Of a stretch of 64,000 nt of DNA, positions 19,878-25,149 are shown one piece after another. Within the stretch, counting starts at the first letter, position 1, and every line of letters starts with the position of its first letter. The DNA is from Paenibacillus woosongensis (GTDB lineage: Bacteria; Bacillota; Bacilli; Paenibacillales; Paenibacillaceae): the NCBI RefSeq assembly GCF_009725165.1, contig NZ_WNZW01000002.1, forward strand, positions 558,001 to 622,000, in the 5' to 3' direction. The position numbers were made by a program, and so were the translations under genes. The notes beneath the pieces are model-generated. The model searched no databases and was not told where the DNA came from. It saw nothing but the letters and a program-made list of their open reading frames with translations.

Positions 19878-20723
19878 ATGAATGGCTATCTGTTTCATGT
19901 AGATCAACCGCTGCATATGACGATGACAGGCAAGTTCGCTTCCCCTTCGCCGGATTGGATACATTTGAGCAGGGTACTGATGGATTATGAATTGTTCGTG
20001 CAGACAAAGGGAGTGTTATATATCGCGGATGAGAAGGAGCAGTACGTGCTGGAGGGGGGCGACTTCCTGCTGATGCCACCCCGCGCCAGGCAGTATGGAT
20101 ACCGGGCTTCAGATTGCAGCTTCTATTGGCTGCATTTTATTCCATCTGGCGGTGGAGCCGACGTCCAGGTCATGGATACGGCCCAGCATGTACACCAGGC
20201 CGGAAGCATCGTTATTCCCCGCAAAGGAACACTGCGCAGCGCAGATAAAATGATCGTCCTGATGAAACAACTGCAGGATGCCGTCCGCAACTACCGCGAA
20301 CAGACGCTGAGCAACTACATGACGACGACAATTCTCTGCGAGCTGTACAACCTGTTGTTCCGCCCGAATCGCAAAATAAAGCAGCATCAGCTCTATAACG
20401 ACATCGTTGATTATATTCAGTGGCATCGTTACGAGCCGCTTAAAGTATCGCAAATCGCCGATCACTTCGGATACAATGTGAAATATTTGTCACACCTGTT
20501 CTCTAGCATCGCAGGGGTGTCATTGAAGCAATTTATTTTACAGCAAAAAATCGCAGCCGCCTCCTTCCTGCTTACGGACACGAATCAAACGATCAACGAA
20601 ATTGCGATGCAGCTCAGCTATCACGACAGCCATCACTTTATGAAATCCTTTAAGCAAATGACAGGCCTAACCCCGACGGAATACCGGAATGCGTACGCGA
20701 ACCGGCTGTTGTTTTATGAGTGA
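19878..20723 (+). CDS. AraC-family regulator next to GH127
   Basis: A 281-residue regulator. The N-terminal cupin (ELFVQTKGVLYIAD, then GGDFLLMPPRARQYGYR) senses the inducer. Residues ~180-280 are the AraC DNA-binding domain (LKVSQIADHFGYNVKYLSHL, then INEIAMQLSYHDSHHFMKSF). GAGGAGGA precedes the ATG. It is divergent from GH127 across 243 bases, so it most likely activates that gene in response to an arabinose-containing sugar (inference). A strong terminator follows. Confidence 0.9.
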   Translation: MNGYLFHVDQPLHMTMTGKFASPSPDWIHLSRVLMDYELFVQTKGVLYIADEKEQYVLEGGDFLLMPPRARQYGYRASDCSFYWLHFIPSGGGADVQVMDTAQHVHQAGSIVIPRKGTLRSADKMIVLMKQLQDAVRNYREQTLSNYMTTTILCELYNLLFRPNRKIKQHQLYNDIVDYIQWHRYEPLKVSQIADHFGYNVKYLSHLFSSIAGVSLKQFILQQKIAAASFLLTDTNQTINEIAMQLSYHDSHHFMKSFKQMTGLTPTEYRNAYANRLLFYE

Positions 20724-20733
20724 GGGATAAGAC

Positions 20734-20770
20734 AAAGCCGGCTAGCAGAATCTCTGCTTAGCCGGCTTTT
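20734..20770. terminator. Rho-independent terminator after the AraC gene
   Basis: A long stem (AAAGCCGGCTAGCAGA / TCTGCTTAGCCGGCTTTT, one mismatch) ends in four T residues on the plus strand and three on the minus strand. It separates the AraC gene from the convergent quorum-sensing pair and can serve both. Confidence 0.88.
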
Positions 20771-20796
20771 ATGTAGCTACTAACTTTTGAATTAGC

Positions 20797-20913
20797 TCAG
20801 TATCCACCGCCGTGCTCTAAGCCTTTCACGGTATTCGTATGGCCTAAACTGCCTCCTACAAGGCCAGACCCTAAAGAAATAACGATAACCAGTGCCAAAA
20901 TCCATTTACGCAT
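20797..20913 (-). CDS. 38-residue exported pro-peptide, probable quorum-sensing signal
   Basis: A 38-codon frame starts MRKW, has a hydrophobic stretch (residues ~4-20, WILALVIVISLGSGLVG) and ends in a short polar tail, VKGLEHGGGY. This is the layout of Phr/AimP-type pro-peptides: a Sec signal sequence, then a C-terminal segment released outside the cell and matured to a 5-10 residue signal. Its ATG overlaps the last codons and stop of the TPR regulator (ATGCGTAA), so it is translationally coupled, and GAAGGGGTG lies upstream. The Gly/His-rich tail recalls the mature peptide of an Alo system of Paenibacillus polymyxa (from memory). The exact mature sequence is not known. A type I toxin is a weaker alternative. 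Confidence 0.75.
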   Translation of the reverse strand: MRKWILALVIVISLGSGLVGGSLGHTNTVKGLEHGGGY

Positions 20914-22273
20914 CTTTTATCACCCCTTCCAGTAAAGTTTCATATTCCTTTAATTGTCCTTCTGTTGCAAATGATCTATAGCGTTCAAATAAAGGAATTA
21001 GCTTCATAAAATAGTTATAATTTTTGAGGGATATAGCAATTTTTAGCGTAATTAATATTTTCGATATCCCTTCCTCAAATTCCTTTTTTCTCAAATAATA
21101 TACAGATAAATGATAGAATAATCTTAAGTATCGATCCTTACTTACCTCTAACCTATAGTAATTATCAGCTCTATCGTATAATCCCGTATCAATGTTAAAT
21201 TGTTCGAGTATATCATCTATAAAAAAATTATGAATATTTGATGCCTCAACAATAACCCTTAGGCTAGGCAATATCTCGGGTGGATGCTTCTTTACCGATT
21301 CAATATATTCCGGAATGATAGATTGATCACCAAGTAATACCTTTAGATTATAAGTGTTCAATTTGGCAAACAACTTGAATTTCTCAACCTCTTCCTTTCC
21401 AGATTCATTCAATCCAACAAACCAGCTTAAATCTGCATAACCTGCTATGTATTCAGGTATCTCTTCGTATCTTCGTTGAAATTGTAATGCAATACCTTTT
21501 AGCACGTAACCTTGACCATAATATACAACTAAGTTTCGTTCAGCTCTAAACTGAAATGCTTTACCTTGAAGATATGCTCTCTCATAATTTTTATAAACCA
21601 TTTTAGCGAGATTTCTGAGCTCATCAGAATATATTTCGGTTTGCACCCATTTTTGCAAAGTTAAATAGGCATTGGCTAAATGTAATAACCCGTCCAATTG
21701 ATAATCCTCAGGCAAACGATACAAGTAAAGCTCAAATCGCGTAGCCGCAATCAGATTAGCTTCTGCGTCATCCCCCAAAGATAACCGAAACAACCTGTAA
21801 TGGCTGATGGCAAGCCGTTCGGAATGCTGATACTTCTCACTCTCAATCACAACATTGTAAAATAAGCGGGATTCCTCACGCAGCCCTTTCTCGTAAAGCT
21901 CCTCGCCAATTTCGAAAATCATGGGAATGTAGCTCAAATTTTCTACGATGCGATCAAGCACCTCTTGAATGCATTCGGTCTGTCCCACTTCGGCGCACCG
22001 GAGCAGAAAGGCCTTTACCCTTCTGCGGTTCGGTTGATCCGAATCCACGCATTCATTGACGTATAACGGATAAAAGTGCCCTTCCGGCTGTTCCAGGGCT
22101 TCCGTCATTAAATCCAATTGCCGAATGGCAATGGGTTTGGGAGGGTTTCCGTTGAGAATGGCGCTGAGTGTCCCGCGATTAATTCCCGAGCGGCTGGCAA
22201 ACCTGCTCAAAGAGTAGCCTCTGCGCTCAAGCTCCTGTTCTATGATAGAACGGATCGTGGGTTCATTCGTCAC
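20906..22273 (-). CDS. XRE-TPR quorum-sensing regulator (RRNPP / Alo-type)
   Basis: A 455-residue protein. Residues ~5-60 form an XRE helix-turn-helix (YSLSRFASRSGINRGTLSAI). The rest is all-helical with degenerate tetratricopeptide repeats (for example GLLHLANAYLTLQKW and FYHLSVYYLRKKEFEEG). This matches the RRNPP receptors (Rap, PlcR, AimR and the AimR-like Alo regulators of Paenibacillus), which bind a re-imported peptide through the TPR superhelix. The start is GTG at 22273 with AAGGAGG upstream. The gene is clearly AT-richer than its neighbours, suggesting horizontal origin. The 38-codon peptide gene overlaps its 3' end. No phage genes are nearby, so this is not an arbitrium module of a visible prophage. 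Targets are unknown. Confidence 0.85.
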   Translation of the reverse strand: MTNEPTIRSIIEQELERRGYSLSRFASRSGINRGTLSAILNGNPPKPIAIRQLDLMTEALEQPEGHFYPLYVNECVDSDQPNRRRVKAFLLRCAEVGQTECIQEVLDRIVENLSYIPMIFEIGEELYEKGLREESRLFYNVVIESEKYQHSERLAISHYRLFRLSLGDDAEANLIAATRFELYLYRLPEDYQLDGLLHLANAYLTLQKWVQTEIYSDELRNLAKMVYKNYERAYLQGKAFQFRAERNLVVYYGQGYVLKGIALQFQRRYEEIPEYIAGYADLSWFVGLNESGKEEVEKFKLFAKLNTYNLKVLLGDQSIIPEYIESVKKHPPEILPSLRVIVEASNIHNFFIDDILEQFNIDTGLYDRADNYYRLEVSKDRYLRLFYHLSVYYLRKKEFEEGISKILITLKIAISLKNYNYFMKLIPLFERYRSFATEGQLKEYETLLEGVIKDA

Positions 22274-22352
22274 TCTGGCTCCTCCTTCCTATGCATCAGC
22301 GTAAAATTCCAAAATATTTAGCTAAGTGATTTAATCTCCTATATTTTTACAC

Positions 22353-22381
22353 ATTATACGAAAATATGAACTGGTGGTCAA
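22353..22381 (-). promoter_or_regulatory. Sigma-A promoter of the quorum-sensing operon
   Basis: Minus-strand TTGACC (22376-22381), a 17-bp spacer and a consensus TATAAT (22353-22358) form a strong vegetative promoter. The leader to the GTG start is about 73 bases. Confidence 0.88.
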
Positions 22382-22430
22382 TTAATTTTTTTATTTGTTT
22401 CATATTTTATTGAAATTCCCCTAAATTGAA

Positions 22431-22479
22431 AAAAGGCTGTCCCGGCAATCATCTGCCTGATCATTGCCGGAACAGCCTT
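22431..22479 (-). terminator. Rho-independent terminator of the amidohydrolase-MFS operon
   Basis: A 17-bp stem with one mismatch (AAGGCTGTCCCGGCAAT / ATTGCCGGAACAGCCTT) is followed on the minus strand by six T residues, about 30 bases after the stop at 22510. Confidence 0.92.
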
Positions 22480-22509
22480 ATATGTTGTTGTGGTTACGCT
22501 CTCTGCCTT

Positions 22510-23694
22510 TTACTCCAGACCGTAATATCCGCACACGACTTCGCCCACGGACTTGGCGGCGACGAGCAGCGCATCTTCGTCGATATCGAACTTCGGATGG
22601 TGGTTGAAATAGACCTCGTCCGTATTTTTAGGCTTACAGCCAATGTAGAAGAAGCAGCCCGGGATTTTCTCCAGATAATAAGCAAAGTCTTCCGATCCTG
22701 ACAGCATATCCGCCTCCGAAACAGCTGTCAGATAATCGCCTATGCCCCGGTTTAGATACTTGACTACATTGGCGGTAATTTCAGGATCATTATAGAGCGG
22801 AGGATAATCCGCCGTATAAATCAGTTCGGCCGTTATGCCGAACATGGCCTCGATCCCCTTCACGATCCGGTGAACTTCCTTGTCGATTAGCTGCTGTGTT
22901 TCTTTGGTCATATAACGGACATCGCCTTCCAGTACAACCGAATCCTTAATAACATTAAAGCTCCCTTTGCCGTCAAAAGAGCCAATCGTGACCACACCGG
23001 TCTCGAACGGGTTTAACCGGCGACTCACAATCGTCTGAACAGCAGTCACAAAATAACTTGCTGCGACAATAGCGTCATTCGCCAAATGCGGAGAAGATCC
23101 GTGCCCCCCTTTGCCATGAATAATCAGTTTGAAGTAGCTTCTTCCCGCCATCGCATAACCGCTGCGATAACTTACTGTTCCGGCTGGCGAGGTTGGAAAC
23201 AAGTGTATCCCGAAAATTTGATCCACATCGTCCAGCAGTCCCGATTCAACAATCGACTTGGCTCCTCCTGGAGGAGTCTCTTCCGCATGCTGGTGAATAA
23301 TCTTGATCGTTCCCGGGATATCCTTCTTCAACTGAATCAGACAATCGGCGAGCACCAGCAAATAAGCGGTATGACCGTCATGGCCGCAGGCATGCATCAC
23401 ACCCGGATTCTTGGAAGCAAACGGCAGCCCCGTCTGTTCCGGAATCGGCAGAGCATCGAAGTCGGCGCGAAGCGCAATCGTCTTGCCGGGCTTCCCCCCG
23501 CGAATCGTTACGATCATTCCGTACCCTTCCCATCCCTTCTGAACCTCCACATCTTTGCCTTGATAAAAGTCGGCAATATATTGCGATGTCTCTTTTTCAT
23601 GAAAAGACAGCTCAGGATGCGCATGCAAATGTCTCCGTATTTCAATCATTTCTGCCTTTCGGGCTTCAAGCATGCTTAGTAACTGTTTTCGCAC
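22510..23694 (-). CDS. M20D amidohydrolase (N-acyl-amino-acid / hippurate hydrolase type)
   Basis: A 394-residue M20D metalloprotein. HACGHDGHTA supplies the conserved Cys/His metal ligands, HQHAEETPPGG the catalytic Glu and further ligands, and GKGGHGSSPH the dimerisation-domain His. HHPKFDIDEDAL is the C-terminal metal ligand region. The frame opens with GTG at 23712. GTG 23694 is preferred because GGGGGG lies six bases upstream and the start then aligns exactly with the paralogue at 25150. Members cleave N-acylated amino acids and small peptide conjugates. The substrate is not predictable. It is the last gene of a three-gene unit with an MFS carrier in the middle. Confidence 0.9.
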   Translation of the reverse strand: MRKQLLSMLEARKAEMIEIRRHLHAHPELSFHEKETSQYIADFYQGKDVEVQKGWEGYGMIVTIRGGKPGKTIALRADFDALPIPEQTGLPFASKNPGVMHACGHDGHTAYLLVLADCLIQLKKDIPGTIKIIHQHAEETPPGGAKSIVESGLLDDVDQIFGIHLFPTSPAGTVSYRSGYAMAGRSYFKLIIHGKGGHGSSPHLANDAIVAASYFVTAVQTIVSRRLNPFETGVVTIGSFDGKGSFNVIKDSVVLEGDVRYMTKETQQLIDKEVHRIVKGIEAMFGITAELIYTADYPPLYNDPEITANVVKYLNRGIGDYLTAVSEADMLSGSEDFAYYLEKIPGCFFYIGCKPKNTDEVYFNHHPKFDIDEDALLVAAKSVGEVVCGYYGLE

Positions 23695-23739
23695 ATATTT
23701 CCCCCCGTTCACTTATTTCAACCTGGATGATTCCATAAG

Positions 23740-25149
23740 TTAAGCTTTTTGAAGTTTAGGGATTCTCCGTTTTTCAGCCTTCCTGTCGCTAGGAACCATA
23801 AATAGGATCGCGAGTATGGACAGCACACAGAAAGCGACATTGACCAGCAAACCTGTGGAGGCGGCCAGTTCTACGTTGCCCGAAGCTGCGATTGTTCCGT
23901 ATACGGCTGCTGAACTCGCCACACCGAAGGAACCGCCCAGGGAGCTGGCCATCTTATAGATACCCGATGCAACCCCAACCTTGTCGGAAGGCGCATTGGT
24001 TACGGCTGTGTCGGTCGAAGGCGTAGCATACATGCCAAGGCCGATTCCAAACAGCATGAAACCGACAAATACCACGATGGAATAGAGGAAGCCCTGAATA
24101 AAGGTACAGGCGGCCAATGCAATTCCGATCCCCGTAATCACGGTGCCAACCAGCATCGGTTTGCGGGCGCCAATTTTCTGCATAATCTTCTCCCCAACCC
24201 GAATCATCGCAAGCACGCTGACCAAATATCCAAGGGATAACATCCCCGTTGCAAAAGACGTAAAACCTCGGCCCACCTGAATATAAGTATTCGTAACAAC
24301 AAGCGTACCGGCAACCGCATTCAACAGGAAATTGGAAATCGTTGCACCGGAATACGCTCTATTCTTGAATAGGGAGAAATCGATAAAGCCTGTCCCCGCT
24401 TTATGCGTTTCTACTCTAAAGAAAATAATGACAAACAGCAGGAAGCAAACCATTAAGGATATTGTAATCATGCTAGTCCATCCGAACGAAGCACCCTGCG
24501 TAATAAGCAAATTCAGAGAGACCATGGCCACGACGAAGGCCAGCAGGCCACTGGTGTCGAATTTGGAGCTGACGCCTTGTTCGACCTTGCTTTCAGGAGT
24601 CCCCTTAATGAGAAAAATCCCAAGCACCGCAATAACAATCGAGAAAATGAAAATCCAGCGCCATCCCATATAAGTAGCTATTGCTCCCCCGGCAAACGAG
24701 CATACGCCCGATCCGCCCCAAGAGCCGATCGACCAATAGCTTAGCGCCCGCTGACGCTCTGCACCGTCATAGTAGGTTTTAACTAGAGCCATCGTCGCTG
24801 GCATGATACATGCCCCAGACAGCCCTTGAACAATGCGCCCAATAATCAGCAGAACAGACCCTTGCGCAAGTACAAGACATAAAGAGCCAACAATGCTAAG
24901 CAGCATCCCGATATAAGTCAGCTTCATGCGTCCATACTTGTCCGCCAATCCTCCGGCAACGACGATAAAAATTCCGGAGAACAATGCGGTCAAACTGATC
25001 GCAATGTTGATAATATCAAGGGAAATCCCCAGATCGGCCTGTACAGCAGGCACAATATTCACCATCGATTGAGCAAACAGCCAAAATGTAATTACCCCGA
25101 ATACAATTCCCAGGATTAACTTGTTTGTGCCATGGTATGGAGTGTCCAT
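23740..25149 (-). CDS. MFS transporter, DHA2-like (about 14 membrane segments)
   Basis: A 469-residue major-facilitator carrier. The motif GGLADKYGRMKL follows the second helix, and PATMALVKTYYDGAERQRAL and GSWGGSGVCSFAGGAIA mark the drug/H+ antiporter-2-like fold. Its ATG directly abuts the TAA of the upstream amidohydrolase (TAAATG), so the two are translationally coupled. AGAGGA lies ten bases upstream. Placed between two amidohydrolases, it more probably carries their acyl-amino-acid substrate or product than a drug (inference). The direction of transport is not evident. Confidence 0.9.
   Translation of the reverse strand: MDTPYHGTNKLILGIVFGVITFWLFAQSMVNIVPAVQADLGISLDIINIAISLTALFSGIFIVVAGGLADKYGRMKLTYIGMLLSIVGSLCLVLAQGSVLLIIGRIVQGLSGACIMPATMALVKTYYDGAERQRALSYWSIGSWGGSGVCSFAGGAIATYMGWRWIFIFSIVIAVLGIFLIKGTPESKVEQGVSSKFDTSGLLAFVVAMVSLNLLITQGASFGWTSMITISLMVCFLLFVIIFFRVETHKAGTGFIDFSLFKNRAYSGATISNFLLNAVAGTLVVTNTYIQVGRGFTSFATGMLSLGYLVSVLAMIRVGEKIMQKIGARKPMLVGTVITGIGIALAACTFIQGFLYSIVVFVGFMLFGIGLGMYATPSTDTAVTNAPSDKVGVASGIYKMASSLGGSFGVASSAAVYGTIAASGNVELAASTGLLVNVAFCVLSILAILFMVPSDRKAEKRRIPKLQKA

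Follow-up and report, generated by a model that had tools for sequence, protein, structure and literature searches.

Does the window, the whole 64,000-nucleotide stretch of Paenibacillus woosongensis DNA analysed here, carry a peptide signalling pair, and which parts of that pair stay with the locus while others change between relatives? A sequence-only reading had described a helix-turn-helix (HTH) and TPR regulator of 455 codons overlapping, out of frame, a 38-codon exported frame, and our analysis confirms this arrangement, on the minus strand. In the light of the evidence set out below, the locus is very probably an Alo (AloR–AloP) cell–cell signalling pair with a modular receptor, proposed mechanism included. 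The genes and signals concerned are as follows.

20906..22273, minus strand: aloR, XRE-type HTH and TPR transcription regulator, 455 aa, GTG start (ORF list, translation)
20797..20913, minus strand: aloP, exported pro-peptide gene, 38 aa, ATG inside the end of aloR
20800..20817, minus strand: predicted mature signal EHGGGY, last six aloP codons (position analogy to SHGRGG of AloP13)
22353..22381, minus strand: sigma-A type promoter, TTGACC-17 nt-TATAAT, 11 of 12 consensus positions matched (conserved in the clade)
19878..20723, plus strand: convergent AraC-family regulator, neighbour of aloRP in all five window-clade species

Gene pair and family membership

The two genes overlap by 8 nt in different frames. 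AloP, with the sequence MRKWILALVIVISLGSGLVGGSLGHTNTVKGLEHGGGY, has a short basic start followed by a hydrophobic core and the tail VKGLEHGGGY. The pair had also been described as AT-rich; the AT-richness is real but confined to the sensor half of the receptor, with a GC content of 0.322 in codons 191–455 against 0.495 in codons 1–190.

An AlphaFold model of AloR (alignment of the window protein and 47 homologues, pLDDT 92.2) places the HTH helices within residues 7–59, followed by 20 further helices in a TPR superhelix. By this model, the receptor has the HTH plus TPR superhelix of RRNPP/RRNPPA proteins, with HTH profile matches that lie below the Pfam cut-off. The best structural matches of the model include RapI and NprR (both Z 17) and AimR (Z 15), but TPR proteins unrelated to RRNPP receptors reach equal scores in this comparison; the modelled fold is compatible with RRNPP. 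A search of the AloR sequence against solved structures gave no match at E 0.1.

Sequence, layout, promoter and peptide tail support assignment of the locus to the Alo-type RRNPP pairs, as had been proposed from the sequence alone. The receptor is 45–49% identical to the Alo13 group over nearly its whole length. Two loci, L046 (P. brasilensis) and L053, were taken as Alo13 orthologues because their peptides end in SHGRGG; L046 also has 14 residues, NGSQITVSSHGRGG, in common with the synthetic pro-peptide used in PMC7425212, and the start of its receptor, ENATTIRS, agrees with a primer printed in that paper. Window AloR is 46–47% identical to these two (46.5% to L046, with query residues 1–454 matched), which, with L046 standing in for AloR13, lies within the homology rule of RRNPP_detector as quoted in PMC10075063 (at least 30% identity and at least 80% mutual coverage). 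The exported frame directly downstream, at 38 aa with an 8-nt overlap, falls in the 32–50 aa range of Alo peptides, and the host belongs to the Paenibacillaceae, in a genus that includes P. bouchesdurhonensis and P. fonticola. An AloR-like gene is present in 40 of 40 genomes of the genus (E 1e-20) and in 47 of 299 genomes of the class, the 47 falling in three families; these counts fit the Paenibacillaceae distribution of Alo reported by Voichek et al. 2020 (PMC7425212).

The search for Alo paralogues that the sequence-only reading had suggested returned at least four aloR genes in the genome, the window gene being one, each with its own overlapping exported peptide. Their tails are EHGGGY (window), LDNGIGS (L002), IHGLGG (L003) and SALHGT (L004). 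A quickly built tree of 105 receptors, with SH-aLRT as its one support measure, places the window in a 13-row clade (100), nested in a 27-row set that holds the Alo13 group (98).

The window pair resembles Alo13 of P. polymyxa ATCC 842 (PMC7425212) in having an HTH–TPR receptor followed by an overlapping exported peptide, in the tail pattern xHGxGx and in the promoter TTGACC-17-TATAAT; a further likeness is an NPPKPI stretch after the HTH, common to the window clade and L045. It differs in the hexapeptide itself (EHGGGY, not SHGRGG) and in lacking a downstream spo0E-like gene, the next gene being the convergent AraC regulator. At L045:5001-6422 and downstream (P. ottowii), the signal stands twice, as near-copies, at the end of the peptide (LFGHGNGNYSTYGHGNGH), as in the duplicated Phr peptides of Bacillus.

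Window AloR has only distant relatives on mobile elements: identity stays below 60% in each of 2 phage and 36 plasmid records, and the best of 21 viral contigs with AloR relatives reaches 40%. Three of the 36 plasmid records are labelled Brevibacterium (CP062263 and CP062264) or Arthrobacter (one), the remaining 33 Paenibacillus or Brevibacillus. By these labels the restriction of Alo to Paenibacillaceae is not strict; the three labels may be wrong, or alo genes may have spread. We rejected a prophage origin of the window pair, since the locus lies in chromosomal DNA that keeps synteny: at least two related chromosomes are collinear with it over 19.5 kb, and the flanking genes in that stretch encode RNase J, M20, MFS and AraC proteins.

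The peptide gene

Short frames are common in the window, and aloP might be one that happens to lie at the end of a regulator gene. We give this reading next to no weight, and regard it as refuted, as far as sequence allows, by the conservation, selection and survey data that follow. A hydrophobic peptide frame stands at the aloP position in all 14 orthologous loci of the genus (L005–L018, of which L005 is from the same species as the window), so that the absence of the small frame from relatives that keep the regulator, named beforehand as evidence against the pair, was not encountered. These frames start with ATG, GTG or TTG and overlap aloR by 8 or 38 nt; in the clade whose tails read ENGVGG (L010–L017), six of the eight start with GTG or TTG, and the overlap is 38 nt rather than 8. 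Among four species (the window, L006, L007 and L008), codons 14–38 of aloP give a pS of 0.78, a pN of 0.27 and a pN/pS of 0.35, and in this substitution pattern aloP shows itself to be under purifying selection.

The same layout recurs across the family. Our survey took in 101 AloR loci, drawn from named genomes and from viral contigs; they are not independent and include some near-copies. Of these, 96 were judgeable, and in 86 of the 96 an exported frame preceded by an SD lies no more than 60 nt from the end of the receptor gene. Among 377 other genes of these loci, only six have such a frame at their end, and at least three of those six are AloR genes that escaped the filter. The dipeptide HG lies within the last nine residues in 66 of the 86 AloP-like frames, and five of the 10 loci without a frame (L047, L049, L066, L131 and L133) hold a candidate under looser rules.

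Some loci depart from the single-peptide plan. In the viral contigs L125, L132 and L134, whose receptors group in a viral-contig clade of the receptor tree, two peptide frames lie behind AloR, one at −38 and the other at about +107 to +115 nt; their tails include YDQHGGA and ATHGGA. In the control set, the gene at L116:2130-3012 ends over a peptide with a repeated tail, NHGANS...NHGANS.

A conserved peptide could also be something other than a signal. An orphan HTH–TPR regulator beside a small membrane peptide that is not secreted (for example, a tiny toxin or a membrane anchor) would agree with the hydrophobic N-terminal stretch of the 38-residue frame, and with the only NCBIfam match of AloP, the AimP-family profile, staying below its cut-off (E 0.0026). 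Against it, fragments of 9 of the 14 predicted AloP peptides of P. polymyxa were detected in the culture medium and SHGRGG is active (PMC7425212), and the tail co-diverges with the sensor domain of the receptor, as described below. We hold a membrane peptide to be very improbable. For AloP13, the mature peptide SHGRGG is proven and acts on transcription, an effect shown for AloP13 only (PMC7425212). By analogy of position, the mature peptide of the window pair is probably close to EHGGGY.

Promoter, candidate operator and terminator

22341..22367, minus strand: candidate operator, inverted repeat ATATTTT-N13-AAAATAT over the −10 box (clade alignment)
20734..20769, strand not assigned: terminator-like hairpin between aloP and the convergent AraC gene

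A promoter scan of the window found 8 sites where 6.1 were expected, which is not above chance. The promoter call is supported instead by conservation across the clade: TATAAT is present in 13 of 13 clade loci, window included, and TTGACC in 12 of 13. The sigma-A promoter noted earlier therefore stands as a conserved TTGACC-17-TATAAT, but not on the scan alone. The stretch TATAATGTGTAAAAATAT is conserved in 11 of the 13 loci, with one change each in L009 and L038, and the sequence around it is not alignable between the two subclades. TTGAC-type promoters recur before many aloR genes family-wide and may bear on the cross-regulation reported for AloP13. A long common promoter sequence, TTGACC[AG]CTGTAAAATTTAGGATTAAAAT, precedes several aloR genes (for example, those of L081, L085, L086, L091 and L101) and could be a common operator behind that cross-regulation.

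The inverted repeat over the −10 box of aloR suggests autoregulation by AloR. Its right arm is found in 12 of 13 clade loci and its exact left arm in 5 of 13; across the family, promoters lean only slightly towards inverted repeats centred on the −10 box (mean percentile 0.72 for 99 promoters, 41 of them at 0.8 or above). Given that weak tendency and the five exact left arms, we offer the operator as a suggestion only. The exact repeat occurs once in the 5.68-Mb genome and the promoter 31-mer, allowing up to three mismatches, also occurs once, so that no regulon beyond autoregulation can be proposed.

Of the terminator proposed after the pair, the stable hairpin is borne out: the 81-nt stretch that contains it folds at −30 kcal/mol (z −4.8). 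It is, however, common to aloP and the convergent AraC gene, has a weak T-run on the aloRP strand and, at 20769..20734, is not among the calls of a consensus terminator scan of the window.

Divergence at the locus

We compared the window with G037, from a sister species, and G036, from the same species; the comparison genomes number about one per species. Identity to each changes sharply within aloRP.

21704..22273, minus strand: fixed module of aloR, codons 1–190 (HTH and first TPR helices), 93.7% nucleotide identity to G037
20909..21703, minus strand: putative exchangeable sensor module of aloR, codons 191–455, AT-rich, 71.1% nucleotide identity to G037
20701..21700, either strand: most divergent 1-kb window against G037, 292 differences, with a median of 40 over 828 windows
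20729..22527, either strand: near-identical tract against G036, 2 differences in 1,799 bp (4.5% in the rest)

Against G037, 45,044 of the 64,000 bp could be aligned, at 93.8% identity; aloP stands at 64.2% and the aligned rest, outside aloRP, at 94.4%. The breakpoint falls at aloR codon 191 (maximum chi-square 131, 0 of 200 permutations), near the start of helix 189–205 of the model, and the divergent stretch ends between about 20700 and about 20750, around the hairpin. Taken gene by gene, the surroundings are 91–97% identical, with the exception of an MFS transporter at 83.5%. A second divergent stretch, at 23501–24700, lies in this MFS gene between the two M20 peptidase genes, with up to 184 differences per kb.

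Synonymous divergence follows the same boundary. Against G037, pS is 0.195 in aloR codons 1–170, 0.23 in the GH127 gene, 0.26 in AraC and 0.29 in M20a, and 0.72 in aloR codons 200–455; in the diverged part, synonymous sites are thus close to saturation. The C-half also has the higher pN/pS ratio, 0.25 against 0.09 for the N-half, but faster amino-acid change alone is insufficient, because pS itself rises from 0.195 to 0.72 within one gene. Our alignments thus show that the C-terminal sensor half of AloR (codons 191–455) and the pheromone gene co-vary, with the DNA-binding half and the flanks staying as they are.

Comparison with G036 gives the opposite extreme at the same place. All 64,000 bp align, at 95.6% identity, and the near-identical tract, where about 81 differences would be expected at the outside rate, is the lowest among 1,246 windows of 1.7 kb. 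It begins immediately beyond the AraC stop codon and extends 18 bp into the M20 gene, a pattern that points to recent allele exchange. Both extremes, divergence from G037 and near-identity to G036, lie at aloRP and would be explained by recombination that exchanges alleles.

In a tree of the N-halves, the window pairs with G037 (95/91). The C-half tree holds the five window-clade species together (100/100), in no resolved order among themselves, and because it keeps the clade together, exchange would have taken place among alleles of one lineage. Donors of the cassette were sought with an 854-bp query in 394 family genomes, two candidates being scored per genome: 10 genomes matched, none was a near donor, and the best match outside the species was G004 at 75%. 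The genome's own paralogues, which are in the 105-receptor tree and not in the C-half tree, were considered as donors and are not supported, given that the C-half tree keeps the clade together.

Tails and sensor halves diverge together

In the window clade, with five different tails, the ratio of C-half to N-half pN is 1.9–10.2 in all 10 pairs. In the sister clade, where all eight tails are ENGVGG, it is 0.9–1.9 in 27 of 28 pairs and 4.2 in one. The pS excess in the window clade is clear only in the closer pairs (window–L006 and L007–L008); in distant pairs (L007–L009 and L008–L009) the N-half pS is already as high as the C-half pS, so that the pS argument rests mainly on window–G037 and L007–L008.

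The paralogues give further comparisons within the same genomes. At L003, the tail IHGLGG is unchanged in three genomes and no significant breakpoint appears (21 and 35 of 200 permutations). At L004, the tail has changed in G037 and a breakpoint lies at codon 328 (0 of 200); G036 has the old tail and a weak breakpoint signal (9 of 200). At L002, the C-part has diverged from that of G037, whose receptor is shorter, and a peptide frame was looked for in this G037 counterpart and not found.

We extended the comparison to 187 receptor pairs of the family, not independent of one another, with N-halves at least 85% identical, taking the last six residues as the tail. Median identity of the sensor halves is 87% for pairs with the same tail (n=27) and 58% for pairs with different tails (n=160), with median C/N divergence of 1.55 and 5.5, respectively. 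Restricted to disjoint pairs, 15 same-tail and 24 different-tail, the two groups still differ (p 4.6e-5). Exceptions exist on both sides: 5 of the 15 same-tail pairs have a C/N ratio above 2, one of them 6.7, and 6 of the 24 different-tail pairs have a ratio below 3. In two of these six, L100/L102 and L103/L109, the HG motif lies inside the peptide, and the signal there may be elsewhere than in the last six residues.

Flanks were checked in 12 hand-picked pairs out of the 187. The sensor half dips in identity in all 10 different-tail pairs, some of them with flanks that are only partly alignable; between P. amylolyticus L092 and Paenibacillus sp. LS1 L101, for example, identity is 96% upstream, 97% in the N-half, 65% in the C-half and 97% downstream. 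Such matching flanks mean that these pairs are alleles of one locus. Of the same-tail pairs, L046/L053 shows no dip (77% upstream, 90% N-half, 91% sensor half, 92% aloP region and 94% downstream) and L081/L089 a slight one, from 78 to 73%. At the Alo13 locus, forms with different tails are 88–96% identical in the N-half and 37–58% in the sensor half; the two SHGRGG forms stand at 97% and 90%. That tails and sensor domains diverge together lends indirect support to the proposal that the last residues of AloP are the signal.

An explanation with no recombination is that the sensor half and aloP evolve faster in place, through relaxed or diversifying selection or at a mutation hotspot. The higher pN/pS of the C-half against G037, a C-half tree that keeps the clade together and the lack of a near donor in the 394 family genomes (two candidates each) would all suit it. 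Selection on amino acids, however, would not lift pS from 0.195 to 0.72 in one gene, the single-tail sister clade shows no comparable excess in the same domain, and a tract as close to G036 as 2 differences in 1,799 bp calls for recent exchange. We consider evolution in place unlikely, and infer that a sensor-plus-pheromone cassette is exchanged by homologous recombination.

Neighbourhood and output

The convergent AraC gene is 85–98% identical in amino acids across L005–L009 and was not seen next to aloRP in L010 or L018, the two further loci tested. It is followed by a GH127 gene, likewise in the other window-clade species. A tuning role in plant-polymer degradation had been envisaged for the pair, and we found no functional link to it beyond this convergent AraC/GH127 neighbourhood, kept in the nearest species. 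A link to arabinan use was considered and set aside: the AraC gene is convergent, and it was found to adjoin aloRP in L005–L009 but not in L010 or L018.

Alo13 acts on an adjoining spo0E-like gene (PMC7425212). Four Spo0E-like genes were located in the genome; one lies beside paralogue L002 and none beside the window pair. With the Pfam model, a Spo0E-like frame is found downstream in L046, L048 and the genome's own L002; an earlier motif scan of 19 loci, too strict to detect these three, had found none. Upstream, aloR directly follows the RNase J gene in seven of the eight named sister-clade loci, and a single frame separates them in the eighth (L039); the RNase J gene of the window is found three genes upstream of aloR.

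Related systems and proposed mechanism

Arbitrium, the AimR–AimP system of Bacillus phages, likewise has a receptor with an HTH and nine degenerate TPRs, and a 2025 structural phylogeny places AloR and AimR in one clan (PMC12700828). The window pair differs in being chromosomal, not phage-borne, and in having no sequence match to AimR. Rap–Phr of Bacillus also pairs a receptor with a C-terminal signal; Rap, unlike AloR, has no HTH. Specificity shifts in Rap–Phr have been tied to phr duplication and to transfer of rap–phr systems, with already diverged alleles spreading horizontally (PMC5199041). The unit that appears to be exchanged at Alo is a different one, the sensor half of the receptor with its pheromone.

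In the ComQXPA and agr pherotype loci, the sensor part and the signal vary together and create communication groups, a co-variation like that of the Alo window clade. Their sensors are membrane histidine kinases that read modified peptides, not cytoplasmic DNA-binding receptors. For Alo, we found no description of cassette exchange in the open-access literature, which was available mostly below full-text level (including PMC10075063, PMC9765709 and PMC12700828).

The sequence shows aloRP to be a two-gene unit behind a single promoter. In the mechanism that we propose, the AloP pro-peptide would be secreted and cut to about EHGGGY, as suggested by AloP13 and the RRNPP families. By the same analogy, the EHGGGY-type peptide would be re-imported by an oligopeptide permease and bound in the TPR groove of AloR, changing its DNA binding; the co-divergence of tail and sensor half bears on groove binding only indirectly. 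AloR may act on its own promoter through the inverted repeat over the −10 box, and strains with different alleles would fall into separate groups, each hearing its own members and not the rest.

Implications

The window pair itself is one more Alo system, and the cassette pattern matters more. We think it probable that AloR across the Paenibacillaceae has two modules: a DNA-binding half, conserved and attached to one locus and its regulon, and a sensor/pheromone cassette swapped by homologous recombination anchored in the flanking conserved sequence. Each swap would rewire one output to a new private signal in a single step, and many Alo loci would have their own sets of pherotypes. If sensor and pheromone do swap together while the DNA-binding half stays fixed, Alo loci would be kin-discrimination loci. 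The natural alleles, with N-halves 97–99% and sensor halves 50–72% identical, would then be ready-made chimeras for locating the residues that read the peptide, and Alo alleles as a whole would form a natural domain-swap series for mapping pheromone specificity.
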